Shown here: positions 22,949 through 47,095 of the stretch, piece by piece
Layout: the number at the start of each line of letters is the position of its first letter
Numbering within the stretch: position 1 is the first letter of the stretch
Assembly: GCF_000711885.1 (NCBI RefSeq)
Contig: NZ_JONK01000005.1
Span: forward strand, 238,418 to 302,417
Source of the DNA: Chromobacterium haemolyticum DSM 19808
GTDB taxonomy: Bacteria > Pseudomonadota > Gammaproteobacteria > Burkholderiales > Chromobacteriaceae
DNA length: 64,000 nucleotides
Reading direction: 5' to 3'
Position numbers and translations under genes: made by a program
Notes under the pieces: generated by a model
What the model was told of the DNA's origin: nothing
What the model saw: the letters and a program-made list of their open reading frames with translations, nothing else
The model's database searches: none

Positions 22949-23093
22949 AGAGCCTGTTTACGATCCGCTGCGCTTCGTGAGACGTGACACGGTGAGTACC
23001 GTTTCGAAATGCTCATGTACCACATGACCATTCCGCTTTCTCCGTGGTTTTCGCCTTGTCTCGCCCTCGCTCGCGAGGTCGTAAACAGGCTCT
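22949..23093 (+). repeat. Dispersed repeat, full forward copy (reference copy)
   Basis: This 145-base copy has perfect 13-base inverted ends, AGAGCCTGTTTAC and GTAAACAGGCTCT. The conserved interior blocks are CGATCCGCTGCGC near the left, AAATGCTCATGTACCACATG in the middle, and TTTTCGCCTTGTCTCGCCC near the right. There is no ORF. Its right end abuts the stop codon (minus strand) of the ToxS-like gene at 23094. Confidence 0.9.
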
Positions 23094-23561
23094 TTAGAGA
23101 ATTTCCTGGTTTTCGCAGAAAAAGCTGATCGAGTCGAAATTGACTTGGGTGACATGGTTGGTGACCGGCACCATATTGATCAGGTGGCGGGTGCCGATGT
23201 CGAAAATGTGGTACTCGCTGGCTAGGCTGCCGTATTCGGACGGCGACTTGGTCTTTTTAACGATGGTGACCGCGTTGGCTTCTCCGTTCCACCCGTAGCT
23301 GGTTTTGAACTGCAGCAGGCGGTTGATGTAATCGCCGGTGGGCGAATGCAGGAAGAAGTGGATGGTCTCGTTCTTCATGTCCAGGTCGATGAAGCCGCTG
23401 GTGGTGGCGACTTCGCCGCTGTGGCGCGGGAAGCGCAGCTCGGAGATGCGAGCGGTGCAGATGGTGCGGCTGTCCATGATGTAGTTGCGGCTGGCATAGC
23501 CCAGGTAGAGCGCGACCAGAAACAATCCGAGAGCGATCAGAAAACGATTTTGTTTTTGCAA
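23094..23561 (-). CDS. Small single-pass membrane protein, ToxS-like partner of the ToxR-like regulator
   Basis: A protein of about 155 residues, possibly a periplasmic cofactor of the regulator encoded upstream. It has a short cytoplasmic start, one membrane helix (NRFLIALGLFLVALYLGYA), and a periplasmic domain with a Cys pair (ICTARI near the membrane and FFCENQ near the end) that could form a disulfide. The preferred TTG start has GGGAG 9 bases upstream; a GTG at 23609 without a good site would add 16 residues. It overlaps the regulator gene by 25 bases. No family was recognised; the ToxS comparison rests on arrangement. Confidence 0.6.
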   Translation of the reverse strand: MQKQNRFLIALGLFLVALYLGYASRNYIMDSRTICTARISELRFPRHSGEVATTSGFIDLDMKNETIHFFLHSPTGDYINRLLQFKTSYGWNGEANAVTIVKKTKSPSEYGSLASEYHIFDIGTRHLINMVPVTNHVTQVNFDSISFFCENQEIL

Positions 23562-24235
23562 TTGAGATCGCTCCCGTATTTCTTGTCGCACAGATAGCTC
23601 GCCGTGCACTTGCCGCTTTTGATGTAGAAGGCGTCGCCGCCGCTTTCCGGCAGCTTGGGCGCGTCGCGGTAGACATTGCCCACCACGAACAGGCTGCGCG
23701 CGCCGTCGCGCATTTTATGAATATTCATTTGCGGAATCCACCAAGAGGCATGCCAGCCCAGCAGCAGGCCTAGGGCGATGATGGCCAGCGCGGCCAGCGC
23801 CTGGCGGCGATCAATGCGGGCCGGCAAACGCCAGCGGGCTTTGCGTCGTTGTGGCGCGGGCGCGGGGCGGGTCTCCTGCGGGCCGGCTTCCGTCGCCGGC
23901 GATGGGCTATCGGCGTCCGCCTGCGGTTCCAGCAGGACGAAGGCGCCGACGAATTGGCAGCCGCGTCTTGGAATGGTCTTGATGATCTTGGGGTCCAGCC
24001 CGCTTTTCTCAAGTTGTGCGCGCAGATCGAACACCAGCTTGTGGTAGCTGGAGTCTGTGACGATGGTTTTCCCCCATACGTTTTCAATCAGCTCGTTTTT
24101 TTCGAACAGCCCGGAGAGCAAGAGCTTGAGCAGCAACGCTTCGTTGTACTTCAAGATGATCTTGTCTTGATCCCAGGGCAGCAGGCTGCCTTCATCAGGG
24201 TCGAAGACGACTTTGTCTTCAATATGGAATCTCAT
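23537..24235 (-). CDS. ToxR/CadC-like transmembrane transcriptional regulator
   Basis: A 232-residue regulator with an OmpR/PhoB-type winged helix at about 1-102 (NEALLLKLLLSGLFEKNELI, DSSYHKLVFDLRAQLEKSGL, TIPRRGCQFVGA), a proline-rich linker, one membrane helix at about 147-167 (LAALAIIALGLLLGWHASWW) and a periplasmic tail of about 65 residues with three cysteines (GKCTASYLC and NCKN). This is ToxR/CadC architecture: a sensor that binds DNA while in the membrane. The gene is AT-richer than its neighbours, has a weak ribosome site, and is followed by a small membrane protein. Targets are unknown. Confidence 0.82.
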   Translation of the reverse strand: MRFHIEDKVVFDPDEGSLLPWDQDKIILKYNEALLLKLLLSGLFEKNELIENVWGKTIVTDSSYHKLVFDLRAQLEKSGLDPKIIKTIPRRGCQFVGAFVLLEPQADADSPSPATEAGPQETRPAPAPQRRKARWRLPARIDRRQALAALAIIALGLLLGWHASWWIPQMNIHKMRDGARSLFVVGNVYRDAPKLPESGGDAFYIKSGKCTASYLCDKKYGSDLNCKNKIVF

Positions 24236-24884
24236 TTTTATAATCTTTCTGTCCACGCGAAGGCCGGTATTGGAAAATTTGATATTACGGCCAATGCGGG
24301 GTCGGCGATATTTTAAATTACCCCATAGGTAATTTGCTCTAAATCGATTATAGATAGCAATACCCAACTGCCAAGCTGGCCTTGCCAAGTGGTGCTGCGG
24401 GGGAGCCGAAAGGTAAGCGGAAATGACAAGAGCGCCAGGGGCGCTCTTGGTTTGACGTGAAATATTTTCCAACAAAATCCGCTTCTTTTCAAGAGGATGG
24501 CCGCTGCCGCCGCATGGGGCGCAGGCGCGGGCGCGCGGCGAAATCTGCTGGAACTCAGGCCTGTTGGGCATTGCCGCCGGGATGGCGGCGCCGGGGAGTC
24601 ATGCGTATTCGACGTGGCCTGTTCGCAACGAAAACCATGAATTTGGCAAAAGGCCAGAGTAGGGGGCGATGACTACGGAATTGTAGCGTCCCGATTACAG
24701 CGCTCCGGCGCGGTAGCGGGGCGGAAAAGGTCCGTATTGGTCAATCCGGCGAGCGCAGTGTTTGAAAATCTGGGGCAGAAAACCGTCAATGAAGATAGGC
24801 GGGCGCTATCTAACTAGGATTGGATGGAATAGACGGGGCAGTGAAATGGCGGAGCCGGCTTGTTGAGCCAGCGCCGCCTTTTTT
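24236..24884. other. Gene-poor intergenic region
   Basis: No convincing gene is seen in 649 bases; the short open frames lack codon bias and ribosome sites. The part next to the ToxR-like gene (24236-24360) is AT-rich and probably carries its promoter. CAAGAGCGCC (24427-24436) and GGCGCTCTTG (24440-24449) form a perfect 10-bp hairpin without a T-run. Confidence 0.5.
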
Positions 24885-25172
24885 TTAATGAGTGGATTTA
24901 AGCTGTTTGATTTCTTGTTGCGCCAGAAGCAGCTCTTGCTCTATCGCGTTAATTCTTTTATCTCTGCTGTTAAGTTCGTTTAACAGTTGCTCGCTCAGCA
25001 ATTGGGCCTGGTCCAGGCATAGGATCAGAGCGGAGAGTTTCGCGCTGTTGGCGAGTTGCTCCATTAGCGGAGCGCCGGCGTTGTCGTGGTCTTTGTTTTT
25101 ATATTGCATGCTGATTAATGTGGTGTCGTTATTCAATACATTTAGGCTGACGAAATCGGATTTCGTGCCCAC
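24885..25172 (-). CDS. Hypothetical small coiled-coil protein
   Basis: A possible protein of up to 95 residues (GTG start at 25172; the first ATG at 25109 would give 74). The C-terminal half is helical and heptad-like (LLSEQLLNELNSRDKRI, IEQELLLAQQEIKQLK), suggesting a coiled coil. Neither start has a clear ribosome site. I recognise no family. The gene is AT-rich like the rest of this islet. Confidence 0.4.
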   Translation of the reverse strand: MGTKSDFVSLNVLNNDTTLISMQYKNKDHDNAGAPLMEQLANSAKLSALILCLDQAQLLSEQLLNELNSRDKRINAIEQELLLAQQEIKQLKSTH

Positions 25173-25447
25173 GGAACAGAGTGCAGATCATAGCATGCAG
25201 TTTGGATGGGTGGGGGCGCAAGGCTTGAGAATTAAGCTTTTTGCCAGGGGTGGTAAGGAATGATAATGATTGCTGAGGCTGTTCCGGCCCTGTGCTTGGG
25301 ACTGTATTGGACATTTCCGGTTCTTTCAGGACCGCTATAACGATAATCATTTCTAATGGCTGATAATAAATTGTACTGATTAAGATAAAGACATTTAGTA
25401 TCAATGGGGTTAAGCTGGCCGCTCATGTTTTTGGGAGGCAAGTAGCC

Positions 25448-25721
25448 ATGTTAATAGCGAGAAATGAAAAGGTATTGGAGGGGTTGGCCCGAGAGCGGCA
25501 GATGATTTGGCGGCAAGATCTGGAGAGCTTGACGGTGTATATAGAAAACCTGATCAGAAAAACCAGCGCCATGGGCGCGGTGGTGCCAGGTCTATATCGC
25601 GCCTTGAGAATATGCAGCTTCGCATTACAAAGGCGGCGGTGTGGGCGGTAAAGTGTATCTGACGCGTAAAGAGCGATTAGATATTTATTGGGCGGTAAAA
25701 TCAGAATCCTTTTCAATTTGA
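25448..25721 (+). pseudogene. Small gene with a +1 frameshift (about 90 residues if repaired)
   Basis: A well-placed ATG with GGGAGG 9 bases upstream opens a frame beginning MLIARNEKVLEGLARERQ. Near 25603 the coding signal shifts by one base: the first frame continues as an Arg/Cys-rich tail to a stop at 25651, while the +1 frame reads EYAASHYKGGGVGGKVYL, then TRKERLDIYWAVKSESFSI and a stop at 25721. Dropping one A in TTGAGAATAT joins them. This could be a real pseudogene, a sequencing error or programmed frameshifting. No family is recognised. Confidence 0.55.
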
Positions 25722-25724
25722 TTT

Positions 25725-25913
25725 TTGGTCAGTAGTGGCGTGTATTTTTGGATTGGGAAATCAACAGTGTCGCTGATCGGCTTTGTATGTTATCGGGTAT
25801 TTAGCATTGCTTTGTTCTGGTGCGGAATGAAAGCGCTGGGCATTGGCGTGTTGATGCTGCTCTTGCATATTGGCAAGGAGAAAGCGTTGAATGCGCCGTT
25901 GCGGCGCGAGTGA
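25725..25913 (+). CDS. Possible small hydrophobic protein
   Basis: An open frame of up to 62 codons starting four bases after the stop of the frameshifted gene. It encodes two hydrophobic stretches (VSLIGFVCYRVFSIALFW, LGIGVLMLLLHIG) and a basic tail. Candidate starts are TTG at 25725 and GTG at 25740, both with poor ribosome sites. A strong plus-strand terminator follows at 26011, which supports transcription in this direction. Function unknown. Confidence 0.3.
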   Translation: MVSSGVYFWIGKSTVSLIGFVCYRVFSIALFWCGMKALGIGVLMLLLHIGKEKALNAPLRRE

Positions 25914-26010
25914 GCGCCTGCGCCTGGTTTGTGGCAGCAAAGTCAGGCGCGGGTTTCTTCTCGCCTTGCCGGAGCGGGTGTAAGTAGACATTTTCGGATT
26001 GAAATGAAAT

Positions 26011-26040
26011 AGGGCCGCGTTGTGATAACGCGGCCCTTTT
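26011..26040 (+). terminator. Strong Rho-independent terminator
   Basis: AGGGCCGCGTT and AACGCGGCCCT form a perfect 11-bp stem with a 5-base loop, followed by TTT on the plus strand. It would end a transcript covering the small genes at 25448-25913. Confidence 0.8.
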
Positions 26041-26070
26041 GGCGTGAGGAGAATCCGGCCAGAGCAAGGC

Positions 26071-26158
26071 GGCGTCGCCTAGCGCAGCGGATCGTAAACC
26101 GGTTCTCAGAGCCTGTTCAACGCCGTATCTCCGACGCACGGCAGACTTTGAAGATTCT
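26071..26158 (-). repeat. Fragments of the dispersed repeat
   Basis: An end fragment (GGATCGTAAACCGGTTCT, to 26106) is followed directly by a 51-base copy (26108-26158) that keeps both ends, AGAGCCTGTTCAA and TTTGAAGATTCT, but has lost the middle. A full copy follows at once. Confidence 0.7.
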
Positions 26159-26159
26159 C

Positions 26160-26301
26160 AGAGCCTATTCAACGTCTCGCGAGCAAGAGCGAGACAAGGC
26201 GAAAACGGCCGAAAAAGCGGAGTGTACAGAGGGTACATGAGCATTTTGAGGGTGTTTTCAACGCCGTATCGCCGAAGCGCAGCAGACTTTGAACAGGTTC
26301 T
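26160..26301 (-). repeat. Dispersed repeat, full reverse copy
   Basis: A 142-base reverse copy from AGAGCCTATTCAA to TTGAACAGGTTCT with the core GAGCGAGACAAGGCGAAAAC. Its last base is also the last base of the phnM stop codon, read on the minus strand. Confidence 0.9.
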
Positions 26302-27449
26302 CAGAATACGCGTTGGCCGGCGCTCCATACCTGGCGCACCAGCGGGATGCCGTCCCGTTCGCGCGCCTGAACCAGATCCGCGCGCTGGCCTACGGCGACG
26401 GCGCCGCGGTCCGCCAGGCCCACCGCTCGCGCCGGGTTGCGCGTGATGGTGGCTATTGCGCGGTGCAGATTCCAGCCCGGCTGGCGGCCCAGCAGATAGG
26501 CGGCGTGCAGCAGGCTGGCGGGCACGTAGTCGGAGGACAGGATGTCCAGCAGGCCGTGGCCGGCCAGCTCCAAGGCGGCGACGTTGCCGGAGTGGGAGCC
26601 GCCGCGGACGATATTGGGCGCTCCCATCACCGTCATCAGTCCTTGGTCGCGCGCGGCGCGGGCGGCGGCCAAGGTGGTGGGAAATTCGGACATGGCCACG
26701 CCGTCGCGCACCGCCTCGTCGATATGACTGAGTTCGGTGTCGTCGTGGCTGGCCAGCGCGACGCCGCGGGCGCGGGCCAGCTCCACCACCGCCTGGCGGT
26801 GACGGCCGGCGTATTGCCGCTGCTTGAGTTTGCGCTGTTCCACCGCGGCGAGGAAGGTGTCGTCGTTCCAGCTGACGTTTTTCTTGGCGTAGTACTTCTT
26901 GTATTGCGCCAAGTCGCGGTATTGGCGCTGGCCGGGGGTATGGTCCATCAAGGACACCAGGCGCACCGCCGGGTGGCCGATCAAGGGCGACAGAGCGTCC
27001 AGCAATTGGGGATAGGCCAGTTCGCAGCGCAAGTGGAACAGATGCTCGGCGCGGAATACGCGCTGGCGCATGCCGGCGTCTATCGCCTCGAAGGCGCTTT
27101 GCAGGGTGTCCAGCCGTACGCTGTCGCCTTCCAGATCGCCCACCGACAGGGCGTCCAGCACTGTGGTGATGCCGGCGGCCACGCATTGCGCGTCGTGGGC
27201 GACCACGGCCGGCAGGGTGGGCCACAGCACGCCGTTGCGCGGCATCAGGTGTTTCTCCAGATTGTCGGTATGCACTTCCACCAAACCCGGCAACAGGTCG
27301 TCGCCGTTCAGGTCCTCGCTATGCGGCGGCGGCGCGCTCAGCGGCCGCGAGTGGATGGCGACGATGACGCCGTTGTCGATCTCCAGCGCGCCGCGCTCAA
27401 GAATGTCGTCGGCCAGGATCAGCCTGGCGTTGTTCAAGATCCGTTTCAT
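26301..27449 (-). CDS. phnM: Ribophosphonate triphosphate diphosphatase PhnM
   Basis: A 382-residue amidohydrolase-fold enzyme that releases pyrophosphate from ribose 1-methylphosphonate 5-triphosphate in C-P lyase metabolism. Metal-binding signatures are LLPGLVEVHTDNLEKH near 53-68, LVSLMDHTPGQRQY, VALASHDDTELSH, and the late SSDYVP. The ATG overlaps the phnL stop. The stop codon TGA shares one base with a copy of the dispersed repeat, so the native 3' end may have been reset by that element. Confidence 0.95.
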   Translation of the reverse strand: MKRILNNARLILADDILERGALEIDNGVIVAIHSRPLSAPPPHSEDLNGDDLLPGLVEVHTDNLEKHLMPRNGVLWPTLPAVVAHDAQCVAAGITTVLDALSVGDLEGDSVRLDTLQSAFEAIDAGMRQRVFRAEHLFHLRCELAYPQLLDALSPLIGHPAVRLVSLMDHTPGQRQYRDLAQYKKYYAKKNVSWNDDTFLAAVEQRKLKQRQYAGRHRQAVVELARARGVALASHDDTELSHIDEAVRDGVAMSEFPTTLAAARAARDQGLMTVMGAPNIVRGGSHSGNVAALELAGHGLLDILSSDYVPASLLHAAYLLGRQPGWNLHRAIATITRNPARAVGLADRGAVAVGQRADLVQARERDGIPLVRQVWSAGQRVF

Positions 27450-28153
27450 GCTAAGGCTTCCGGTTTGTTTGCCAGCGGTACTTCAAACACGCGGTGGGCG
27501 ACGGCGTCGCGGGTGGCCTCGTCGTGGAAGATGCCCACCAGCGCCGCGCCGCGCGCCAGCGCTTCGCGCATCAAGTCGACGACCACCGCGCGATTGGCCG
27601 CGTCCAGAGAGGCGGTGGGCTCGTCCAGCAGCAGGATGGGCCGCGGCGCGATCATGCCGCGCGCGATATTGACCCGCTGTTGTTCGCCGCCGGAGAAGGT
27701 GGCCGGCGGCAACCGCCACAGCCGCTCCGGGATGTTTAGCCGCGCCAGCAAAGCGCCTGCCTCGCGCCGCGCCTCGTTGGCGTCCACGCCCCATTCGCAC
27801 AACGGTTCGGCGACGATGTCCAGCGCCGGCACCCGCGGAATGGCGCGCAGGAACTGGCTGACGTAGCCCAGGGTGTGGCGGCGGGCGTCGGCGATCTCGT
27901 GCGGCAGCGCGGCGGCCATGTCCAGCCAGTTTCCGCGATGGCGGATGCGGATGCTGCCGCGCTCAACCAGATAATTGGCGTACAGCGCCTTGAGCAGCGT
28001 GCTCTTGCCGGCGCCGGAAGGGCCGGCCAGCGCCACGCATTCGCCGGCGGCCGCTTGCAGCGAGACTTGGTCGAGCACCGGCAGCGTCAGGCCGCCTTGC
28101 TGGTGCAGGGTGAAAGTTTTGCTGATTTGCCTTGCGTCTATCAATACGTTCAT
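27446..28153 (-). CDS. phnL: C-P lyase ABC-type subunit PhnL
   Basis: A 235-residue ABC ATPase-like protein of the C-P lyase core complex, not a transporter subunit. Walker A is GPSGAGKST, the signature is FSGGEQQRVNIARG, and Walker B is PILLLDEPTASLD. It starts five bases after the phnK stop and overlaps phnM by four bases, in the usual phnK-L-M order. Confidence 0.94.
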   Translation of the reverse strand: MNVLIDARQISKTFTLHQQGGLTLPVLDQVSLQAAAGECVALAGPSGAGKSTLLKALYANYLVERGSIRIRHRGNWLDMAAALPHEIADARRHTLGYVSQFLRAIPRVPALDIVAEPLCEWGVDANEARREAGALLARLNIPERLWRLPPATFSGGEQQRVNIARGMIAPRPILLLDEPTASLDAANRAVVVDLMREALARGAALVGIFHDEATRDAVAHRVFEVPLANKPEALA

Positions 28154-28157
28154 GGCT

Positions 28158-28931
28158 TCAGGCCTGCAGGATGGAGGATACCAGCAGCTGGGTGTACGGA
28201 TGCTGCGGGTCGTCCAGAATTTGATCGGTGAGGCCGGCTTCCACTACGCGGCCGCCTTGCATCACCAGCGTGCGCTGCGCCAGCAGCCGGGCCACTGCCA
28301 GGTCGTGGGTGACCATGATGACGGCGATGCCGCTGTCGCGCACCAGTCTTCGGGTCAGGTCCAGGAAACGGGCTTGCACCGAGACGTCCAGGCCGCCGGT
28401 GGGTTCGTCCATGAACACCAGCCGCGGATGGGTGGCCAGGCTGCGGGCGATCTGCAGCCGCTGCTGCATGCCGCCGGAGAAGGCGCTGGGCGGGTCGTCC
28501 AAGCGCGCGCGGCCGATTTCCACCCGCTCCAGCCAGTCGCCGGCGGTTTGGCGCAGTTGGCCGTAGTGGCGCTGGCCCAGGGCCATTAGCCGCTCGCCGA
28601 TATTGGCGCCGGCGGAGACGTTCATGCGCAGGCCGTCGCGGGCGTGTTGGGACACGAAGCCCCATTCGCTGCGCGCCAGCCGGCGGCGCTCGGATTCGGC
28701 GATGGCGGTGAGTTCGTGTTCGCGGCCGTCGCGTTCGCGAAAGCGCGCGCTGCCGGCGTCGGCGGCCAGCTTGCCGGCCAGCGCGGCCAGCAGCGTGGAT
28801 TTGCCGGAGCCGGATTCTCCGACCACGCAGAGCACTTCGCCGGCGTAGAGGTCGAAGTCCACGTTGAAGCAGCCGTTGCCGTTGCCGTAGTCCTTGCCGA
28901 GGCCGCGGACGCTGAGGAGGGGCGGGGTCAT
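28158..28931 (-). CDS. phnK: C-P lyase ABC-type subunit PhnK
   Basis: A 257-residue ABC ATPase-like protein that docks on the PhnGHIJ core. Walker A is GESGSGKST, the signature is FSGGMQQRLQIARS, and Walker B is LVFMDEPTGGLD. The start ATG at 28931 overlaps the phnJ stop (ATGA). It resembles dipeptide-transport ATPases, so context with phnJ and phnL supports the PhnK name. Confidence 0.93.
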   Translation of the reverse strand: MTPPLLSVRGLGKDYGNGNGCFNVDFDLYAGEVLCVVGESGSGKSTLLAALAGKLAADAGSARFRERDGREHELTAIAESERRRLARSEWGFVSQHARDGLRMNVSAGANIGERLMALGQRHYGQLRQTAGDWLERVEIGRARLDDPPSAFSGGMQQRLQIARSLATHPRLVFMDEPTGGLDVSVQARFLDLTRRLVRDSGIAVIMVTHDLAVARLLAQRTLVMQGGRVVEAGLTDQILDDPQHPYTQLLVSSILQA

Positions 28932-29785
28932 TGCGGATTGTCCTGTGTGTCGCGGCGTTGCCGGCAGTGATCGCTGTCGGAGCAGACGTATTGGCGCGCG
29001 CCGGCGTCGTCGGTGATGATTTCGTCCAGGTAGCTGTCGCGTGCGCCGCACAGCGCGCAGGCTTGTTCCCAGCTTTGCGTCTGGAAGGGGTGATCGTCGA
29101 AAGCCAAGCTTTCCACTTGGGTGTGAGGCGGGATCGCGTACAGCCGTTTTTCACGGCCGGCGCCAAACAGCATCAGGGCCGGGCTTTTGTCCAGCTTGGG
29201 GTTGTCGAACTTGGGGATCGGCGATGGCGAGGCCAGGTAGCGGCCGTTGACCATGACCGGGTAGTCGTAGCTGGCGGCGATGTGGCCGTAGCGGGCGATG
29301 TCCTCGTACAGCTTGACGTGCATCAGGCCGTAATCCTGATGGGCGTGCAGCTTTCGGGTTTCCTGTTCGCTGGCCTCCAGCGTGCGCAGCGGTTCCGGTT
29401 CCGGCACTTGGAACACCATGATCTGGCCGGCGCGCAGCGGGGTTTCCGGAATGCGGTGACGGGTCTGGATCAGGCTGGCCTCGGCGGTGCGGGTGGTGGT
29501 GGCCACGCCGGCGACGCGGGCGAAGAAGCGGCGGATGTTGACCGCGTTCGTGGTGTCGTCGGCGCCCTGGTCTATGACCTTGAGCACGTCGTCGCGGCCG
29601 ATCACGCAGGCGGTCACTTGAATGCCGCCGGTGCCCCAGCCGTAGGGCAGCGGCATTTCGCGGCCGCCGAAGGGCACTTGGCAGCCGGGCACGGCCACGG
29701 CTTTGAGCAGGGCCCGGCGCAGCATGCGCTTGGTGTTTTCATCGAGGAAGCCGAAGTTGTACGCCCATGGCGCGGCGGTGTTCAT
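28928..29785 (-). CDS. phnJ: C-P lyase radical SAM subunit PhnJ
   Basis: A 285-residue radical S-adenosylmethionine enzyme that cleaves the carbon-phosphorus bond of ribose-1-phosphonate to give the hydrocarbon and a cyclic phosphate. The N terminus WAYNFGFLDENTKRMLRRA is strongly conserved. The cysteines sit near the C terminus in ACALCGARDSYLDE and YVCSDSDHC, matching the unusual C-terminal Fe-S site of PhnJ. Overlaps phnI and phnK by four bases each. Confidence 0.96.
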   Translation of the reverse strand: MNTAAPWAYNFGFLDENTKRMLRRALLKAVAVPGCQVPFGGREMPLPYGWGTGGIQVTACVIGRDDVLKVIDQGADDTTNAVNIRRFFARVAGVATTTRTAEASLIQTRHRIPETPLRAGQIMVFQVPEPEPLRTLEASEQETRKLHAHQDYGLMHVKLYEDIARYGHIAASYDYPVMVNGRYLASPSPIPKFDNPKLDKSPALMLFGAGREKRLYAIPPHTQVESLAFDDHPFQTQSWEQACALCGARDSYLDEIITDDAGARQYVCSDSDHCRQRRDTQDNPQ

Positions 29786-30867: not shown

Positions 30868-30868
30868 A

Positions 30869-31441: not shown

Positions 31442-31442
31442 C

Positions 31443-31883: not shown

Positions 31884-31925
31884 ATCGGGTATTCCCCTGT
31901 GCGGTTTCAATAAAAATTCATATAA

Positions 31926-34134: not shown

Positions 34135-34276
34135 AGAACGTGTTTACGATTTCGCGAGCTAAGGCGAGACAAGGCGAAAACCGCTGAGAAAGCGGAATGT
34201 ACAGGTGGTACATGAGCATTTCGAAGTGGTTTTCAACGCTGTATCGCCGACGCGAAGCAGATCGTAAATAGGTTCT
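34135..34276 (-). repeat. Dispersed repeat, reverse copy
   Basis: A 142-base reverse copy from AGAACGTGTTTACG to CGTAAATAGGTTCT with the core AAGGCGAGACAAGGCGAAAA. It is one of two same-orientation copies that bracket the small gene at 34326-34655. Confidence 0.9.
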
Positions 34277-34691: not shown

Positions 34692-34832
34692 AGAGCCTGT
34701 TCAAAGTCTCGCGAGCAAGAGCGAGACAAGGCGAAAACGGCTGTGAAAGCGGAATGTGCGCGTGGTGAGCATTTCGAAGCGGTACTCACCGTGGGGCGCA
34801 TCACGAAGCGCGGCAGATCGTAAACAGGCTCT
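34692..34832 (-). repeat. Dispersed repeat, reverse copy
   Basis: A 141-base reverse copy from AGAGCCTGTTCAA to TAAACAGGCTCT. Its terminal base forms part of the TAA stop of the GGDEF gene that begins (3' end) at 34832. Confidence 0.9.
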
Positions 34833-39130: not shown

Positions 39131-39198
39131 GCCGGTTCCCGCCATTACGCCGCCCGCCGGGCGGCGTCGTTTCATTTCAAGACACCCTGGAGTTGCGC

Positions 39199-40299
39199 AT
39201 GAAACCGGCCGATAGTTTGGACGGCTTGTCCGAACACCTGTCCGTCCGCGGCCTCAGCCGCCGTTTTGGCGGCTTCACCGCCTTGGACGAGGTGTCCTTG
39301 TCCATCCGCAAGGGTGAATTTGTCTGCCTGCTGGGCCCGTCCGGCTGCGGCAAGACCACCTTGTTGCGCCTGATCGCCGGGCTGGACCAGCCGGACGCCG
39401 GCAGCGTCCATTTGCTGGAGCGCGACATCACTCGCGAACCGCCGGCCCGCCGCGACTACGGCATCGTGTTCCAGAGCTACGCCTTGTTCCCCAATCTCAA
39501 TGTCGCGGACAACATCGCTTACGGCCTCAAGCCGCGCGGCGGCGGCGCGCGCCACGCCCGCCGCGTGCGGGAGCTGCTCGACCTGGTGGGCTTGCCCGGC
39601 GCCGAGGAAAAATACCCCGCCCAGCTGTCCGGCGGCCAGCAGCAACGCGTGGCGCTGGCGCGCGCGCTGGCCACCTCGCCCGGCCTGCTGCTGCTGGACG
39701 AGCCGCTGTCCGCGCTGGACGCGCGGGTGCGCGACAAGCTGCGCGACGAACTCAAGGGCCTGCAAAAACGCTTGGGCGTCACCACGCTGATGGTGACCCA
39801 CGACCAGGCCGAGGCGCTGGCCATCGCGGACCGGGTGGTGGTGATGAACGCAGGCGGCATCGAGCAGATCGGCACGCCGGCCGAGATCTACCGCCGTCCC
39901 GCCAGCCGCTTCGTCGCGGAATTCGTCGGCGCCGCCAACTGGCTGCCGGCGCGGCGGCTGGACGGCCACGAGGCCGCCGTCGGCAACTGCCTGCTGCGCT
40001 TGGACGCGCCCTTGCCGCAGAGCGAGGCGCTGACCCTGTTCCTGCGGCCGGAAGACATCATCGTCAAGGCTCGCTGGGACGGCGCGCCCAACACCTTGCT
40101 GGCGCGGGTGGCCGACATCAGCTTCGGCGGCGCGATGACCCGGCTGCGGCTGCAGCCGGAAGCCATGCCCGGCCTGGCGTTGCAAGCGGAAATCTGTCCG
40201 TCCATGCTGCAGCGCCAGCCGCTGACGCCGGGCGAGGTGGTGCCGGTGGAGTTGCCGGCCGCGCTGCTGCGCGCCTATGCCGGGGAGGGCGCATGCTGA
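39199..40299 (+). CDS. phnT: 2-aminoethylphosphonate ABC transporter ATP-binding protein
   Basis: A 366-residue ABC ATPase with Walker A GPSGCGKTT, signature LSGGQQQRVALARA and Walker B LLLLDEPLSALD, plus a C-terminal TOBE domain. It energises uptake of the ligand delivered by the binding protein encoded upstream. ATG at 39199 has GGAG 6 bases ahead. It overlaps the permease gene by seven bases. Confidence 0.9.
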   Translation: MKPADSLDGLSEHLSVRGLSRRFGGFTALDEVSLSIRKGEFVCLLGPSGCGKTTLLRLIAGLDQPDAGSVHLLERDITREPPARRDYGIVFQSYALFPNLNVADNIAYGLKPRGGGARHARRVRELLDLVGLPGAEEKYPAQLSGGQQQRVALARALATSPGLLLLDEPLSALDARVRDKLRDELKGLQKRLGVTTLMVTHDQAEALAIADRVVVMNAGGIEQIGTPAEIYRRPASRFVAEFVGAANWLPARRLDGHEAAVGNCLLRLDAPLPQSEALTLFLRPEDIIVKARWDGAPNTLLARVADISFGGAMTRLRLQPEAMPGLALQAEICPSMLQRQPLTPGEVVPVELPAALLRAYAGEGAC

Positions 40300-41990
40300 G
40301 CCGCGCGCTGAACGGCTGGCGCGCCGCGCCGGCCTGCGGCGAGCGCCGGGCCGCCGCCGCGCTGGTGTGGACGCTGACGGCGCTGCTGGCTTTGGCGCTT
40401 GGCCTGCCGCTGCTGTTCATCTTCGGCAAATCGGTATTGGACATGGACGGCGGCTTTGTCGGCCTGGCCAATTTCGCTCAGGTATTGGACAGCCCCGGCC
40501 TGATGCGCGCCGCGCGGCACAGCCTGTGGCTGGCGCTGACCGTCACCGCGCTGGTGTTGCCGCTGGCCTTCGCCTTTGCCTGGGGGCTGAGCCGCAGCCG
40601 CGTTTGGGGCCGCGGGGTGTTCCGCCAGATCGCCTTGTCGCCGCTCTTGGCGCCGTCGCTGATGCCGGCCATCTCGCTGGTGTATTTGTTCGGCAACCAG
40701 GGCCTGCTCAAATCCTGGCTGGACGGCGGCAGCGTCTACGGCTTTTGGGGCGTGGTGCTGGGCGAGGCTTTCTATACCTTTCCGCATGCGCTGCTGATCC
40801 TGCTGACCGCGTTGTCGGCCTCGGACGCGCGTTTGTACGAGGCCGGCCGCGCGCTGGGCGCGGGCGCGCTGCGTCGTTTCCTCACCATCACCCTGCCGGG
40901 CGCGCGCTATGGCCTGGCCTCGGCGGGCCTGGTGGTATTCACCCTGGTGATCACCGATTTCGGCGTACCCAAGGTGGTGGGCGGCGACTACAACGTGCTG
41001 GCGGTGGAAGCCTTCAAACAGGTGGTGGGCCAGCAACACTTCCCGCGCGGCGCGGTGGTGGGGCTGATGCTGCTGCTGCCGGCGGTGTTTTCCTTCTTTA
41101 TCGAGCGGCGCATGGCGCGCCGCCAGCAGGCGGCGCTGGGGGCGCGCGCGGTGCCGTTTTCGCCGGGGCGCGGGCCATGGCGCGACGCGGCCGCCGGGCT
41201 GTTGTTGGCGATGATCTCGGTGCCGCTGTTGGCCTTGCTGGGCGTGGGCGTCGTGGCTTCCTTCATCAAATACTGGCCTTACGACTTAAGCCTGACGCTG
41301 GCGCACTACCAGTTCGACAGTGTGGACGGCGGCGGCTGGAGCGCTTATTTCAATAGTTTGAAGCTGGCTTGCATCACCGCCGGCGCGGGCAGCCTGCTGG
41401 TGTTCGCCGGCGCCTACGCCTGCGAGAAGCTGCCGGCCGCGCCGCTGGGCCGCGCGCTGTTGCGCTTTTTCGCCATGCTGCCGATGGCGGTGCCCGGCCT
41501 GGTGCTGGGTCTGGGCTATGTGTTCTTCTTCAACCATCCGGACAATCCGCTGCATGGGCTCTACGGCGGCATGACCTTGATGGCCGCCTGCACTATCGCC
41601 CACTTCTACACCACCGGCCACCTGACCATGAGCACCGCGCTCAAGCAACTGGACGGCGAGTTCGAAGCGGTGGCCGCCTCGCTCAAAGTGCCGTTCTGGG
41701 TGACGTTGCGGCGGGTGACGCTGCCGGTGTGCCTGCCGGCGCTGCTGGACGTGATGCGCTATCTGTTCGTGTCCGCGATGACCACGTTGTCGGCGCTGAT
41801 CTTCATCGCCAGTCCGGACAATAGCCTGGCCGCGGTGGCCATCGTCACCATGGACGACGCCGGCGACACCGCGGCGGCGGCGGCGATGGCCACGCTGATC
41901 GCGCTGAGCTCGGCCGGGGTGTCGTTGTTGTTGCTGGGGCTGGAGCGAGTCTTGACCCGGCGCGGCCAGGGCTGGCGCGGCCGCGCTTGA
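40293..41990 (+). CDS. phnU: 2-aminoethylphosphonate ABC transporter permease, fused two-domain form
   Basis: A 565-residue inner-membrane protein with two binding-protein-dependent permease domains in one chain (about 75-270 and 345-550), where Salmonella has separate PhnU and PhnV. Each half has an EAA-type loop (YEAGRALGAGALRRFLTITL and FEAVAASLKVPFWVTLRRVT) that docks on the ATPase. About twelve membrane helices are visible. It completes the importer with phnS and phnT. Confidence 0.9.
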   Translation: MLSRALNGWRAAPACGERRAAAALVWTLTALLALALGLPLLFIFGKSVLDMDGGFVGLANFAQVLDSPGLMRAARHSLWLALTVTALVLPLAFAFAWGLSRSRVWGRGVFRQIALSPLLAPSLMPAISLVYLFGNQGLLKSWLDGGSVYGFWGVVLGEAFYTFPHALLILLTALSASDARLYEAGRALGAGALRRFLTITLPGARYGLASAGLVVFTLVITDFGVPKVVGGDYNVLAVEAFKQVVGQQHFPRGAVVGLMLLLPAVFSFFIERRMARRQQAALGARAVPFSPGRGPWRDAAAGLLLAMISVPLLALLGVGVVASFIKYWPYDLSLTLAHYQFDSVDGGGWSAYFNSLKLACITAGAGSLLVFAGAYACEKLPAAPLGRALLRFFAMLPMAVPGLVLGLGYVFFFNHPDNPLHGLYGGMTLMAACTIAHFYTTGHLTMSTALKQLDGEFEAVAASLKVPFWVTLRRVTLPVCLPALLDVMRYLFVSAMTTLSALIFIASPDNSLAAVAIVTMDDAGDTAAAAAMATLIALSSAGVSLLLLGLERVLTRRGQGWRGRA

Positions 41991-42050
41991 CGATGGCTCG
42001 CTTTGGCGTGACGATGTCATGTATTGGCCCGCCGGAGTGAGGAAACGCGC

Positions 42051-42443
42051 ATGGGATGTCCGCAAGTGTGCATGGGCGCGATGCTGCAATGCAGCTTCGG
42101 CGTCGCCCCCAACAGCCTGATGGTGTTGCCCGCCAACCGGGTGATGGCCGGCGGCGTGCCGGCCGCCAATATCATGGACCATGTGCCCATGCTCAACGTC
42201 ATGCCCTTCGGCATGTGTCAAAGCCCGGCCAACCCAATGGTGGCGGCCGCCACCGCCGCCGCCATGGGCGTGCTGACGCCCATGCCCTGCATCCCGGTCA
42301 CCGCCGCGCCGTGGACGCCGGGTGCGCCCACGGTGCTGATTGGCAATATGCCGGCGCTGGACAGCAACAGCATGCTGATGTGCAACTGGGGCGGGGTGAT
42401 CAAGATCAACTCGCCTGGTCAGTTCACGGTGATGATTCCCTGA
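42051..42443 (+). CDS. PAAR-like protein, DUF4280
   Basis: A 130-residue protein of the PAAR-like DUF4280 type. The signature blocks are VCMGAMLQCSFGVAPNSL, VMPFGMCQSPANP, LTPMPCIPVTAAPW and SMLMCNWGGVIKINSPGQ, with regularly placed Cys residues. PAAR proteins cap the VgrG spike of type VI secretion and connect effectors to it. No effector or VgrG adjoins it; the vgrG and clpV in this window are 18 kb away. Its TGA stop shares a base with a repeat copy. Confidence 0.85.
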   Translation: MGCPQVCMGAMLQCSFGVAPNSLMVLPANRVMAGGVPAANIMDHVPMLNVMPFGMCQSPANPMVAAATAAAMGVLTPMPCIPVTAAPWTPGAPTVLIGNMPALDSNSMLMCNWGGVIKINSPGQFTVMIP

Positions 42444-42584
42444 GAACCTGTTCACGATCTGCTGCGCTGCGGCGATACGGCGTTAAAAACAAGCTCAAAA
42501 TGCTCATGTACCACGTGTACATTCCGCTTTTTCGCTCGTTTTCGCCTTGTCTCGCTTTTGCTCGCGAGATCGTGAACAGGCTCT
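42443..42584 (+). repeat. Dispersed repeat, forward copy
   Basis: A 142-base copy with ends AGAACCTGTTCACGATC and GATCGTGAACAGGCTCT, almost perfect inverted repeats. First of a tandem pair. Its first base is the last base of the DUF4280 stop codon. Confidence 0.92.
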
Positions 42585-42585
42585 G

Positions 42586-42728
42586 AGAACCTGTTTACGA
42601 TCTGCTACGCGTCGTGAAACGTGGCTCGGTGAGTACACCTTCAAAATGCTCATGTACCGAGTGTACACTCCGCCTTTTCAGCTGTTTTCGCCTTGTCTCG
42701 CTCTTGCTGCGAGACTTTGAACAGGTTC
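42586..42728 (+). repeat. Dispersed repeat, second tandem forward copy
   Basis: It starts one base after the previous copy and runs from AGAACCTGTTTACGATC to GAACAGGTTC, with the last T changed. The middle differs clearly from the first copy, so the pair did not arise by a recent tandem duplication. From here to 42921 (193 bases) I see no gene; the last 80 bases are AT-rich and probably hold the next promoter. Confidence 0.85.
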
Positions 42729-42921
42729 CGCTCTGGAAGCCTGTTTGCCTTTGAGCGACCGGATTTTGGCGCCGACAGCTGGCGCTTGTTCATCAGCCTA
42801 TAGGTCAGGCAGCCGACGGACGGCGGCTTGATGAAAATCAAACGATTAATTTAAATGGCATTTTAATTTATGGGCTTCTTGCCAATTGGCATGAATCAAC
42901 CTTCTCAAGCAAGGAGCCGTC

Positions 42922-43422
42922 ATGAGCTTTTCCCATTGTCTCGCCGCCGCTGCACTCAGCCTGGTCGCCGTTTCCGCCTTCGCCGTCACCATCACCCCGC
43001 CGGGCCCCGGCGGCGCGGCCATGCCGTTTTCCGCGGTGGGGCCGGCCAAGGTGGGCAAGCTGGGCATTGATCTGGATTGCAAGGCGGTGTTCAGCGGCAC
43101 CGTGGACGGTTACGGCAATGTGGCCATCACCAGCGCCTCGTTCAGCGGCGGCGCGCTGTGCAAGCTGATCAAGCCCACCGCCTCGGTCGCCTCGCCGTGG
43201 ACCGGTCACGTGGACACCGCGACTCAACTGACTTTGGATAATGTGTCGGTGAATGTGAAATCGCCGATCGCCGGCGGCCTGTGCGGTCCCACCAAGATTG
43301 TGGGCAGCGTGGCCGACAACGGCAGCGAAACCGTGATCGGCCTGGATGCGGCCAAGTTGTCCGGCGGCTGTTCCATTACCGCGACGTTGAACACTACGCC
43401 GTATATGCGGGTTACGCCCTAG
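42922..43422 (+). CDS. Secreted PraB-like protein
   Basis: A 166-residue exported protein with a signal peptide (MSFSHCLAAAALSLVAVSAFA) and a mature part rich in Gly, Ala, Ser and Thr with pairs of Cys. It resembles PraA/PraB-type proteins, described in Pseudomonas as activators of alkane oxidation or biofilm adhesins (VTITPPGPGG, DCKAVFSGTVDGYGNVAIT, LCKLIK, SGGCSITATL). AAGGAG precedes the ATG. The stop TAG overlaps the next repeat by two bases, and the gene is bracketed by repeats in the same direction. Confidence 0.65.
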   Translation: MSFSHCLAAAALSLVAVSAFAVTITPPGPGGAAMPFSAVGPAKVGKLGIDLDCKAVFSGTVDGYGNVAITSASFSGGALCKLIKPTASVASPWTGHVDTATQLTLDNVSVNVKSPIAGGLCGPTKIVGSVADNGSETVIGLDAAKLSGGCSITATLNTTPYMRVTP

Positions 43423-43564
43423 AACCTGTTTACGATCTGCTGCGCTGCGTGAGGCGTGACACGGTGAGTACCGCTTCGAAATGCTCATGTACCCTATGTA
43501 CATTCCGCTTTCTCAGCCGTTTTCGCCTTGTCTCGCCCTTGCTCGCGAGACTTGAACAGGCTCT
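43421..43564 (+). repeat. Dispersed repeat, forward copy
   Basis: A 144-base copy from AGAACCTGTTTACGATC to TTGAACAGGCTCT. Its first two bases lie within the TAG stop codon of the PraB-like gene. Confidence 0.92.
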
Positions 43565-43594
43565 TGGCGATCGGCATTGAAAACGCCTTAATGG

Positions 43595-43630
43595 ACCCCT
43601 GACGCGCCGCATGGCGGCTTCAGGGGTTTT
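43595..43630. terminator. Rho-independent terminator between convergent genes
   Basis: CCCCTGA pairs with TCAGGGG, enclosing a second stem GCCGC/GCGGC, followed by TTTT on the plus strand. It separates the PraB-like gene from the convergent solute-binding protein gene. Confidence 0.7.
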
Positions 43631-43661
43631 GTTTATGCGGGCGGGAGCCGGCGGCCTCTAT

Positions 43662-44486
43662 TCAACGGGCCGGCGTCTGGAGAAAATGCTCGACGATGCG
43701 TTCGGTTTCGCCGGACTGCTTCATCGCCTGCAAGGCCGTGCTCAGCTTGCCGGCCAGAGAGGCCGGGTCCAGCCGTTGCGGGTAGTTATCCGGGCTTAGC
43801 GGCTGGTCGGCGCGGTAATCCGGGTTGGGCAGCGCCCGGTAAAAGCGCGAATGCTTGGAAAAGCCCATATGCATTGCCTGCCAGGGCTCCAGCGACGGGT
43901 GCAGCGTCAGCCCGGCCGGCCGCAGCCGTTCCCAGTAGAAGCGCAGCGTGAGTTCGTCATAGATGTAGAAATCCGCCTTGCCGGCGCTGATCAGGCGGAA
44001 GGCGCGTTCGACATCCAGCTCCGGCACTTGCAGCACCTTGGTGCGCGCTTGCCAGGGAGGGGGAAGCAGGTCCGGGTTGCCCAGGCTGCGCAACTCAACA
44101 TTATTGTCCAGATCGGCGTAGCCGCGTACGGGCGCGTGTTTGGCGCGGGTAATGATGACATGGCGCTCACGCAGGCCGTTGGCCACAAACAGGACGATTG
44201 GTTCGCGCTCCGCGTTGTAGGTGTAGCCGGGGTAGAAGTCCACCTCGCCCTGCGCCAGCGCTTGCAACACCCGCTTCTTTGGCAGACGCACCACTTTCAG
44301 CGTGCAGCCGATGCGCTGGCAGGCGCGGCTGTACAGGGTTTTATAGATGCCGTCGTCGCTCTCGTCCTCGATATAGGGACGCCGCTCATTGGTGCGGTAG
44401 CCCATCACCAGCTCGGGGTCTTGCGCCCAAGCGGGGAAGGCCTGGGCCGCAATGGCGGTGATGAGAAGGCAAAGCGCGAGACGCAT
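43662..44486 (-). CDS. Periplasmic solute-binding protein, family 3 type
   Basis: A 274-residue exported protein with a signal peptide (MRLALCLLITAIAAQAFPAWA) and a type II periplasmic-binding fold related to amino-acid binding family 3 (GYRTNERRPYIEDESDDGIY, QGEVDFYPGYTYNAEREPIV, SAGKADFYIYDELTLRFYW). No ABC permease or ATPase genes adjoin it, so it may serve a distant transporter or a sensor. It is divergent from the agmatine deiminase gene across about 180 bases. Ligand unknown. Confidence 0.75.
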   Translation of the reverse strand: MRLALCLLITAIAAQAFPAWAQDPELVMGYRTNERRPYIEDESDDGIYKTLYSRACQRIGCTLKVVRLPKKRVLQALAQGEVDFYPGYTYNAEREPIVLFVANGLRERHVIITRAKHAPVRGYADLDNNVELRSLGNPDLLPPPWQARTKVLQVPELDVERAFRLISAGKADFYIYDELTLRFYWERLRPAGLTLHPSLEPWQAMHMGFSKHSRFYRALPNPDYRADQPLSPDNYPQRLDPASLAGKLSTALQAMKQSGETERIVEHFLQTPAR

Positions 44487-44668
44487 GACGGTCCCTCCGG
44501 TCGTTCGTTTTCAGCTTATGTCATTCCCGTCGCCAGCGCGCGGCGGAGACAAATACATGATAGAAATAGATAGGTTTCCGCAAAATTCATCGCTTTTTCA
44601 AATGTATGTCCACTTGCACAATGCTGACCGCAGCCATGTGGCTGGAAACCGGTCTTGGAGACGCGGCG

Positions 44669-45760
44669 ATGAGTACGAGACGACACTTCCTGGGCGCTAG
44701 CCTGTTGACGGCGGGGAGCCTGCTGGCCGCCCGCGGCTGGAGCGGCGCGCCGAGCGCGCCCGGCTACCGCATGCCGGACGAGGGCGAACGCCACGCGGCC
44801 ACCTGGATGGCCTTTGGTCCCAGCCTGGAGGTGTGGGGCGATGACTTGCTGCCGGTGGTGCGGCGCGATCTGGCGCGGGTGGCTCAGGCCATCGCCGCCC
44901 ACGAGCCGGTGCGCATGCTGGCGCGCGCCGAGGACATGGAACTGGCGGCCAAGCTGTGCGGCCCCAAGGTGGAGCTGCTGGAGCAACCGCTGGACGATTT
45001 GTGGATACGCGACAGCGGCCCGGTCTTCGTCAAGGGCGAAGGCGGGGCGCCGGCGGCGGTGGATTTCAACTTCAACGGCTGGGGCGGCAAGCAGGCGCAC
45101 CGTCGGGACGCCAAAGTGGCCGCCGCGGTGGCGGCCAAGAGCGGGGCGCCGGCCGTGAGGACCTCGTTGGTGCTGGAGGGCGGCGGCATTGAAGTGGACG
45201 GCGAGGGAACCGCCATCATCACGGAAAGCTGCGTGCTCAACCCCAACCGCAACCCCGGCTGGAACAAGGCGCGGTGCGAGCGCGAACTGCGCCGGCTGCT
45301 GGGCGTGGACAAGGTAATCTGGCTGCCCGGCATCGCCGGCCGCGACATCACCGACGGTCATACCGATTTCTACGCCCGTTTCGTCCGCCCCGGCGTGGTG
45401 GTGGCCGGCTTGGACACGGATCCGCAGTCCTACGATTACGCTGTGACCCGTCGCCACCTGGCCTTGCTGCGTCAGGCGCGGGACGCGCGCGGCCGTAAGC
45501 TGGAGGTGGTGGTCTTGCCGGGGCCCGAGCGGGTGCGGCCCGAGTACGAGGGGCATGAGATGGCGGCCGGCTACATCAATTTCTATGTCTGCAACGGCGC
45601 GGTGATTGCGCCGGAGTTCGGCGACGCCAAGGCGGACCGCAACGCGCGGGCGGCGCTGCGCGAGTTGTTTCCGCAGCGCGAAGTGGTGCAGTTGAACATC
45701 GACGGCATCGCAGCCGGCGGCGGCGGCATTCATTGCGCCACCCAGCAGCAGCCGGCCTGA
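44669..45760 (+). CDS. aguA: Agmatine deiminase family protein with Tat signal
   Basis: A 363-residue member of the peptidyl-arginine/agmatine deiminase family, which hydrolyses agmatine to N-carbamoylputrescine and ammonia. Family residues are clear: WIRDSGPVF, LEGGGIEVDGEG, GHTDFYARF and the nucleophile Cys356 in GGGIHCATQQQP. It starts with a twin-arginine signal (STRRHFLGASLLTAG), so it is expected outside the cytoplasm, unlike standard AguA. GGAG precedes the ATG at 44669. The stop TGA shares its A with a repeat copy. No aguB is nearby. Confidence 0.85.
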   Translation: MSTRRHFLGASLLTAGSLLAARGWSGAPSAPGYRMPDEGERHAATWMAFGPSLEVWGDDLLPVVRRDLARVAQAIAAHEPVRMLARAEDMELAAKLCGPKVELLEQPLDDLWIRDSGPVFVKGEGGAPAAVDFNFNGWGGKQAHRRDAKVAAAVAAKSGAPAVRTSLVLEGGGIEVDGEGTAIITESCVLNPNRNPGWNKARCERELRRLLGVDKVIWLPGIAGRDITDGHTDFYARFVRPGVVVAGLDTDPQSYDYAVTRRHLALLRQARDARGRKLEVVVLPGPERVRPEYEGHEMAAGYINFYVCNGAVIAPEFGDAKADRNARAALRELFPQREVVQLNIDGIAAGGGGIHCATQQQPA

Positions 45761-45922
45761 GAACCCGTTTACACGCTGGCGCGCGTTGGCGATACGGCGT
45801 TGAAAACGAGCTCACAATGCTCATGCACCGCCTGTACATTCCGCTTTCTCAGCCGCTGCGCCTTCTTCTTGCTTGTGGGATGTTGAGCAGGTTCTCAGCT
45901 CGCGGGATCGTAAACATGTTCT
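45760..45922 (+). repeat. Dispersed repeat, longer variant copy
   Basis: A 163-base copy from AGAACCCGTTTAC to GTAAACATGTTCT. About 20 extra bases near the right contain GAGCAGGTTCTCA, which looks like a second right end, as if two copies had recombined or one inserted in another. Its first base belongs to the aguA stop codon. Confidence 0.8.
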
Positions 45923-45992
45923 AATCGGGCGGCGTAGAAGGCAATATCGCCGCCACGCCGGCCCAGGCCGGAAACCAAGAGGACATATCCGG

Positions 45993-46943
45993 ATGGATAG
46001 AGGCAGTAACAGCGGCGGGCCTAAGGCGGGCGAGTGGGAAGACCAGGCAACCGGCGAGCTTGGCCGCCTGCCGTCGCTGCGGCTGCTGACCGGTTTCGAA
46101 GCCGCCGCGCGCCTGGGCAGCGTCTCCCGCGCCGCCGAGGCGCTGCACCTGTCGCAGTCCGCGGTCAGTCACCAGATTCAACAGTTGGAAGCCTTTGTCG
46201 GTCAGCCCTTGTTCCAGCGCGTGGGCCGCGGCATCGAACTCACCTTTGCCGGCGAAATGCTGCAGCAGAGCGTGCGACGCGCGCTGGACACGCTGCGGCG
46301 CGGGCTGGACCGCATCGCGGTGTACACCGATCCGGGCCTGGTGGTGCTGGTGGGGCCGGCTTTTTTGCTGCACGGCTGGCTGCAGGGGCGCCTGGACCGC
46401 CTGCGCGCAGCCCACCCCGACATCGTGCCGCTGCTGTCCACGGATGAAGAACCGGGTCAGGCCGATGAGATCGACGTCGACATCGTCATCGGCCGGCAGC
46501 CGCTGGCGATGGCCGGCTGGGAAGACGCGGCCTGGCTGCGCGAGGACTGGCGTTTTGTCGCCGCGCCGGCCTTGGCGGAACGGCTGGCGGCGCTGCCGGC
46601 CGAGCGTCATCCGCAACTGACGCGCTTGATCTGCCTGGAAAAAGCCAGCATGCCGGAGGCGGCCGCCGCCGCGATGCAGTCCATGCTGCCGCGCTTCGGC
46701 ATCGCCGCCGCCTACGACGCGCCGCAGTTGGCGCTGGACGCGGCCTTGCGCGGCCACGGCATCGCCTGCCTGCCGTCGATGGCCTTGGAAGAAGCGCTGG
46801 CAGAAGGCCGGCTGCGCGAACTGGCCGGCTACCCGCGCCAGCCGGGCGCGCAATGGTGGTTGTCCCGGCCGCGGGACGCTCTGCGCAGCGAGGCGATGGC
46901 GCGTATGTTCGATTGGTTGCGGAAAGAGGGCGGCTGCGAGTAG
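45993..46943 (+). CDS. LysR-family regulator, GcvA-like
   Basis: A 316-residue LysR-type regulator. The helix-turn-helix is at about 25-85 (LPSLRLLTGFEAAARLGSVS, AAEALHLSQSAVSHQIQQLE, TFAGEMLQQSV), followed by a periplasmic-binding-like effector domain. The conserved start of the DNA-binding domain resembles GcvA. GAGGA lies 10 bases before the ATG. It stands alone between two same-direction repeat copies, so its target is not apparent; the aguA gene upstream and the polyol operon downstream are both possible. Confidence 0.85.
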   Translation: MDRGSNSGGPKAGEWEDQATGELGRLPSLRLLTGFEAAARLGSVSRAAEALHLSQSAVSHQIQQLEAFVGQPLFQRVGRGIELTFAGEMLQQSVRRALDTLRRGLDRIAVYTDPGLVVLVGPAFLLHGWLQGRLDRLRAAHPDIVPLLSTDEEPGQADEIDVDIVIGRQPLAMAGWEDAAWLREDWRFVAAPALAERLAALPAERHPQLTRLICLEKASMPEAAAAAMQSMLPRFGIAAAYDAPQLALDAALRGHGIACLPSMALEEALAEGRLRELAGYPRQPGAQWWLSRPRDALRSEAMARMFDWLRKEGGCE

Positions 46944-46953
46944 GCGGCGCCTC

Positions 46954-47095
46954 AGAGCCTGCTCAAAATCTGCTGAGCGTTGGCGGTACGGCGTTGAAAA
47001 CGTCCTCGAAATGCTCATGCCCCGTGTGTGCACTTTGCTTTTTCAGCCGTTTTCGCCTTGTCTCGCCCTTGCTCTCGAGATCGTAAACAGGTTCT
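46954..47095 (+). repeat. Dispersed repeat, forward copy
   Basis: A 142-base copy from AGAGCCTGCTCAAAATC to GATCGTAAACAGGTTCT. The right end supplies one base of the TAA stop of the fructokinase gene on the minus strand; the left end begins 11 bases after the LysR stop. Confidence 0.92.

Follow-up and report, generated by a model that had tools for sequence, protein, structure and literature searches.

A 142-bp repeat of Chromobacterium haemolyticum that often ends on stop codons: probable movement by IS1031-type transposases

Why should a dispersed repeat end, time after time, exactly on the stop codon of a neighbouring gene? This question is raised by a 64,000-bp stretch of the genome of Chromobacterium haemolyticum DSM 19808 (contig NZ_JONK01000005.1, positions 238,418 to 302,417), called the window below, in which an initial annotation had listed twelve copies of a palindromic element and noted that six of them share their terminal A or AG with a stop codon. 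All twelve copies were re-identified. The full-length repeat is about 142 bp long and palindromic, with the ends GARCCTGTTYAMRRTC; the end that continues into ...TCTGC is called L, and the one that continues into ...TCTCGCGAGC is called R. We conclude that the repeat is probably a miniature inverted-repeat transposable element (MITE) moved by insertion sequence (IS) transposases of the IS1031 type (IS5 family), and that a CTNAG target, the rebuilding of the stop and the loss of gene-breaking insertions together account for much of the placing of its copies on stops.

The six overlaps are exact. On the minus strand, the L end of the copy at 26160..26301 lies in the TGA of an amidohydrolase gene (phnM in the initial annotation; shared base 26301), with TCA on both sides as read on the plus strand, and the L end of the copy at 34692..34832 lies in the TAA of a GGDEF gene (shared base 34832), with TTA on both sides. 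On the plus strand, L ends lie in the TGA of a DUF4280 gene (copy at 42443..42584, shared base 42443, TGA on both sides) and in the TGA at 45758-45760 of a PAD_porph-family gene, aguA (copy at 45760..45895, shared base 45760). The plus-strand copy at 43421..43564 contributes two bases, 43421-43422, its AG completing the TAG of a 166-amino-acid gene described as PraB-like; this gene, ending at 43421-43422, has no Pfam match. In the other five of the six genes, a Pfam match extends to no more than 9 residues from the end. The plus-strand copy at 46954..47095 has its R end in the TAA of a PfkB-family gene (a fructokinase according to the initial annotation; shared base 47095). The L end is thus found at five of the six stops and the R end at one, as had been noted. 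The count itself rises to seven of twelve, since the piece at 1..76 (plus strand) is the right part of a copy that occupies window positions -64..76 and has its L end, beyond the window, on a predicted TGA stop. At 22949..23093 (plus strand), the R end directly adjoins the TAA of the gene at 23094 with a gap of 0 and no overlap, also as described.

If the terminal A is assigned to the target, the element sits between TNA triplets, with G as its first base and C as its last. TNA is present at both flanks in 38 of the 60 copies with both ends resolved, and the two triplets are identical in 29 of these 38, compared with a mean of 11.6 and a maximum of 21 in 2000 shuffles. The base preceding the triplet is C at 63% of the ends. 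These flanks indicate a TNA target, preferably C-TNA-G, and a 3-bp duplication, which agrees with the earlier suggestion of a preference for T(A/G)A-like stop sites. With this first G and last C, insertion into CTNAG restores that sequence at each of the two junctions. TAA and TGA stops are the duplicated triplet itself, while a TAG stop is made of TA from the triplet and the first G of the element, the junctions at such stops reading TTAG followed directly by AACC. Junction rebuilding also fits the tandem arrangement at 42443 and 42586, where the second copy (42586..42729, plus strand) has a TGA in common with the end of the first, and it fits the IS ends that adjoin another element (18 of 37 distinct ends).

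A candidate partner with the same ends and target resides in the same genome (G000; 5.03 Mb in 63 contigs, 1.13 Mb of which was sampled). It is an 850-bp IS on contig C3 (189664-190513), with 16-bp ends identical to those of the element and TAA at both flanks. Its inverted ends, of about 17 bp, start with GAACCTGT, and similar ends were found in 46 relatives. The transposase matches PF01609 (E=2e-31) and NF033580, the IS5 family transposase model (150.9 bits against a cut-off of 110); two overlapping frames match NF033580 positions 1-84 and 73-257, and in the IS1031 subgroup such frames are joined by a -1 frameshift. Copies of a second IS variant are broken at contig ends, and ten of its 3' ends match the probe at 100% over 183-337 bases. 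Both end types of the MITE, TTCAAAGTC and TTTACGATC, occur as IS ends. To judge from its sequence, the partner group fits the IS1031 subgroup of the IS5 family. The repeat is short, has inverted ends in common with a co-resident IS, is flanked by a target duplication and is present in high copy number, as MITEs are; it looks like a non-autonomous derivative of these co-resident insertion sequences of about 850 bp, and we infer that the IS moves it in trans.

IS copies with the ends of the element lie at many contig ends of G000 (for example loci L078-L088 and L257-L264); they are identical over their visible parts, a sign of recent activity, and many adjoin another element. A short tandem repeat of the end sequence at locus L071 (2327-2345; G000:C3 near 190513-190531) adjoins the intact IS end and gives the impression that an incomplete end was added.

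The IS copies also reach stops. Among 37 distinct IS-copy ends in G000, G018 and G001, 7 are on a predicted stop, and 6 of these 7 belong to the 19 ends that do not adjoin another element; 5 are at 3' ends and 2 at 5' ends of the IS, with no clear end bias. Relatives of the transposase were collected from genomes of GTDB species; 65 of 80 retained loci were analysed (the 15 omitted were mostly near contig edges), giving 46 distinct resolved copies, 16 unresolved ones and 3 duplicates. Identical triplet pairs flank 35 of the 46, a figure that carries little weight because the search required TNA and favoured identity. In 14 of the 46 the triplet terminates an open frame of 80 codons or more; among control sites in the flanks, 274 of 2088 do so (P=0.0017). 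Landing on stops thus seems to be a property of this IS group.

Beyond the window, a profile made from its copies was searched against the G000 sample and stretches of four further genomes, G004 (800 kb), G013 (120 kb), G005 (240 kb) and G015 (160 kb). It gave 89 matches in the first 864 kb of G000 and 115 in the full 1.13 Mb, a density at which some 500 copies would be expected in the whole genome. No element was found with this profile in the G005 and G015 stretches. A loose first count gave 323-473 candidate copies each in G000, G001, G004, G013 and G018 and 18-70 in fourteen other genomes of the genus, an unevenness that looks like an amplification burst in one clade.

Genes were called with a simple home-made codon-model finder, whose predictions cover 84% of the G000 sample, and a copy was taken as stop-sited when its terminal triplet, or for TAG the last two bases and the G of the element, is the stop of a predicted gene. 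Of the copies with a resolved end, 52 of 112 in G000, 36 of 77 in G004 and 7 of 15 in G013 qualify. Loci outside the sampled genomes were collected by similarity to one window copy: 12 from other species of the genus, where 9 of 16 resolved elements are stop-sited, and 31 from other genera, where the figure is 22 of 33. In G057, from another family, none of 9 resolved elements at 6 loci was called on a stop, at a GC content of 51-55% and with the finder, trained on the window's genome, covering just 0-66%. Over four loci from other families, that of the poorly covered G057 among them, 1 of 4 elements was called on a stop.

Sites were also counted one by one, using the copies with both ends resolved. 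At strict CTNAG sites in G000, 18 of 140 stops are occupied (15 of 131 TAA/TGA and 3 of 9 TAG), together with 9 of 86 sites on the 5' side of genes, 4 of 66 on the 3' side, 2 of 41 between genes and 1 of 226 far from genes, the last class probably including missed genes. In gene interiors the count is 0 of 1421, with the reservation that the finder would report a disrupted gene as a shorter one. Stops and 5' sides do not differ in G000 (P=0.68), nor in G004 (16 of 118 and 7 of 47; P=0.81); 3' sides are occupied about half as often as stops. Stops make up 25% of the tolerated CTNAG sites, or 42% once the "far" class is dropped, compared with 18 of 33 copies (P=0.10). Since stops represent a quarter to two fifths of the tolerated sites, a large share of the copies should come to lie on them. 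None of 209 copies is spanned by a predicted gene, which says little alone, since the same reservation about disrupted genes holds. Open frames in register on both sides of a copy were also considered as a sign of a broken gene; 7 of 46 IS and 14 of 81 MITE copies pass, and the test does not discriminate. We read the occupancy pattern as the outcome of a target and a purge of gene-breaking insertions, with a residue left over.

The initial annotation had proposed a comparison with orthologues that lack the element, and in relatives a stop is indeed found at the place of insertion. For stop-sited copies, the exact empty site is on the stop of the relative's predicted gene in 8 of 12 comparisons and against another element in 4; for the other copies, it is intergenic in 7 of 11, inside a gene in 3 (2 distinct sites) and against an element in 1. 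At the GGDEF gene (34692-34832), G013 has GCTTACAG where G000 has GCTTA[element]TTACAG, an exact empty site with the same stop. Conversely, for the G004 copy at position 146876 (stretch starting at C1:3280001) it is G000 that shows the exact empty site. The stop of aguA is at the identical codon in 17 of 17 orthologues, 2 with the element and 15 without. Insertions into genes do exist, few in number. In one case, a predicted gene of 962 codons stops inside the copies at G004 position 214671 (same stretch) and G013 position 72999 (stretch from C58:100001); the site is empty and within a predicted gene in G000, so that the insertion altered the end of the protein.

From these observations the following mechanism can be proposed. 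An IS1031-type transposase would insert the MITE at TNA, preferably inside the palindrome CTNAG, and duplicate the TNA. Given the first G and the last C of the element, a CTNAG target would then yield CTNAG at both junctions, and a stop in the target would be rebuilt in either possible phase, TAA or TGA as the duplicated triplet and TAG as its last two bases with the G of the element. Most gene-breaking insertions would be lost, which would keep most genes free, and insertions at stops would be cheap and retained.

Several observations weigh against this mechanism as a complete explanation. In the pooled samples of G000, G004 (400 kb) and G013, stops are 7.7% of the non-coding TNA sites and hold 82 of 183 copies, well above chance; they are likewise 25.7% of the CTNAG sites and hold 31 of 58 CTNAG copies. 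The odds ratio of stops over 3' sides is 2.5 in G000 (P=0.08) and 3.5 in G004 (P=0.05) at CTNAG, and 4.5 and 5.9, respectively, at any TNA. The CTNAG share in the site-by-site count fits the copies only when the "far" class is omitted. As to the purge, the 3 empty comparisons of non-stop copies that fall within a relative's gene have been mentioned, and in 6 of 209 copies a predicted gene runs into the copy and stops inside it. Finally, the copies are oriented. Counting each gene once in three species, the end facing the stop is L in 59 cases, R in 14 and both in 2, of 75 (P=1e-7). The A+T content of the flanks predicts 54-58% L compared with the 74% observed, and an off-consensus G stands before the triplet in 13 of 59 L-stops, compared with 10 of 146 non-stop ends (P=0.003). 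Neither the L bias nor the excessive use of stops at less strict TNA sites is explained by the proposed mechanism.

Two candidate determinants of orientation were rejected. The A+T content of the flanks has a real effect that is too weak, and the N of TNA is a purine in 30 and a pyrimidine in 37 of 67 non-stop L ends. In non-stop copies of the sampled genomes, the A+T content is 0.444 over the 30 bp outside R and 0.387 over those outside L (n=66, P=0.025), a weak flank preference that depends on the end.

It has to be considered, then, that stops are favoured in their own right, either because an IS1031-type transpososome reads gene ends or because L copies at stops are kept as elements of the 3' untranslated region (UTR). 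Taken together, we regard this as a serious but rather unlikely possibility. The former option, in which the transposition complex is drawn to terminating ribosomes, to the state of transcription and translation or to DNA structure at gene ends, with L preferably upstream, would account for the excess of copies at stops over the TNA background and for a bias that is confined to the stop itself (L66/R20 at the stop, L8/R6 at 0-10 and L15/R26 at 11-60 bases past it). IS copies ending on stops also speak for it, as does the occupation of one stop in opposite orientations in different species: at aguA the element is L-oriented in G000 and starts with an R-type end in G018 (locus L148), and stop-sited copies of two further genes are oppositely oriented in G000 and G004. 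Such pairs may have arisen by a second insertion at a hot spot, by nesting or through an inversion between the two ends. Targeting of this kind is made improbable by the strict CTNAG stops of G000 and G004, occupied no more than 5'-side sites, by the lack of a clear end bias of the IS at stops, and by the exactly dated young insertions at stops, 2 of which are L and 4 R.

The same young insertions, distinct and non-nested, also speak for selection through a transcript or strand effect in the 3' UTR, by which L copies at stops would be kept or R copies lost: the remaining stop insertions divide into 57 L and 10 R (P=0.011), in a comparison that is small and post hoc, as is the one with nested insertions included (5 L, 5 R; P=0.019). 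If the difference holds, it hints that insertion is unbiased and that selection creates the L bias. Such retention would also fit the recurrence of the bias (L/R 41/12 in G000, 30/7 in G004, 6/1 in G013 and 17/5 in other genera) and the off-consensus G at L-stops. Looser dating, in which shared sites are counted from both genomes, shows no such trend, the shared/empty ratios being 23/16 for L, 7/7 for R (P=0.75) and 18/19 for non-stop copies; moreover, no terminator was called in a copy and no bias is seen 0-60 bases past the stop. We consider retention by selection unlikely, if less so than targeting. That the overlaps are an artefact of gene prediction, frames being called to the element because it carries a stop, could be suspected from the home-made finder but has almost no probability left: it is refuted for the cases examined by the invariant aguA stop, by the Pfam matches close to the gene ends in the window and by the empty sites on the relatives' own stops. 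The CTNAG target with stop rebuilding and purge therefore remains the explanation that we favour.

The initial annotation had also suggested selection as a 3'-end or terminator element. Three copies were folded and form strong hairpins on both strands (z from -4 to -8.5), the R-to-L strand folding more strongly on average, and the longest T run in the copies has a mean of about 4. In the part of the window scanned for terminators, 42000-48200, two terminator-like calls were obtained, neither inside a copy. A terminator function is not supported, given no T-tailed hairpin in the scanned copies and no L bias past the stop. What survives of the suggestion is that some selection is possible: orientation is biased at the stop itself, and less so, or not at all, in the small set of young insertions that could be dated exactly. 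Most likely the copies are selfish DNA that has settled where it is safe. An Rfam covariance-model scan of the window at the gathering score gave no match in element copies; the sole matches are two tRNA genes, at 9818-9890 (plus strand) and 13201-13273 (minus strand).

The remaining copies of the window are not at stops. They lie on the minus strand at 14142..14295 (listed before as 14110-14295), at 34135..34276, where the orthologous site in G013 is without a copy, and at 58828..58942, where a degenerate copy has TGA on both sides on the plus strand and an empty-looking site in G004. A profile match at 26115..26152 (minus strand) is a fragment additional to the twelve. The aguA copy, previously extended to 45922, has its model end near 45895, and the remainder is a second end-like stretch.

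The kind of element is already known; no report of its landing on stop codons was found in a search of open-licence papers by title and opening abstract. ISLrh, of the IS1031 subgroup of the IS5 family, is 857 bp long with GAACCTGTCTAGTATCT ends, and the subgroup is described as preferring TNA (PMC12016507). The partner IS has in common with this subgroup the length of about 850 bp, ends in GAACCTGT..., the 3-bp TNA duplication, the two overlapping frames and an IS5-type DDE transposase; the CTNAG preference, the heavy MITE amplification and the landing on stops distinguish the Chromobacterium elements, as far as the account of ISLrh goes (PMC12016507). IS-derived bacterial MITEs such as MITEAba12 are reported to be similar in having ends in common with a co-resident IS, a target duplication, a mostly intergenic location and a folding transcript (PMC6382973; review PMC10969869), but MITEAba12 makes 9-bp duplications without a sequence trend (PMC6382973). 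The main text of the review does not contain the term "stop codon" (PMC10969869). QMITE2 of Coxiella, as cited there, is mostly in 3' UTRs, but exact sharing of a stop is not stated in that account (PMC10969869). Correia/NEMIS and RUP are also short mobile repeats with inverted ends and high copy number, but are described with TA dinucleotide ends or targets and with stop codons mentioned only within the elements (PMC2229807).

With a target that can be a stop and ends that rebuild it, a mobile element would have a simple means of multiplying in a gene-dense genome while doing little damage, the stop-preserving insertion being encoded in just 3-5 bases. Annotated gene ends that overlap repeats would thereby be explained. 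As natural insertions into 3' UTRs, the copies are numerous and in some cases have an empty allele in a sister species; they may serve as material on the effects of 3'-UTR hairpins on bacterial mRNAs. If stops should indeed be favoured in their own right, hundreds of gene ends would have been remodelled in these bacteria.

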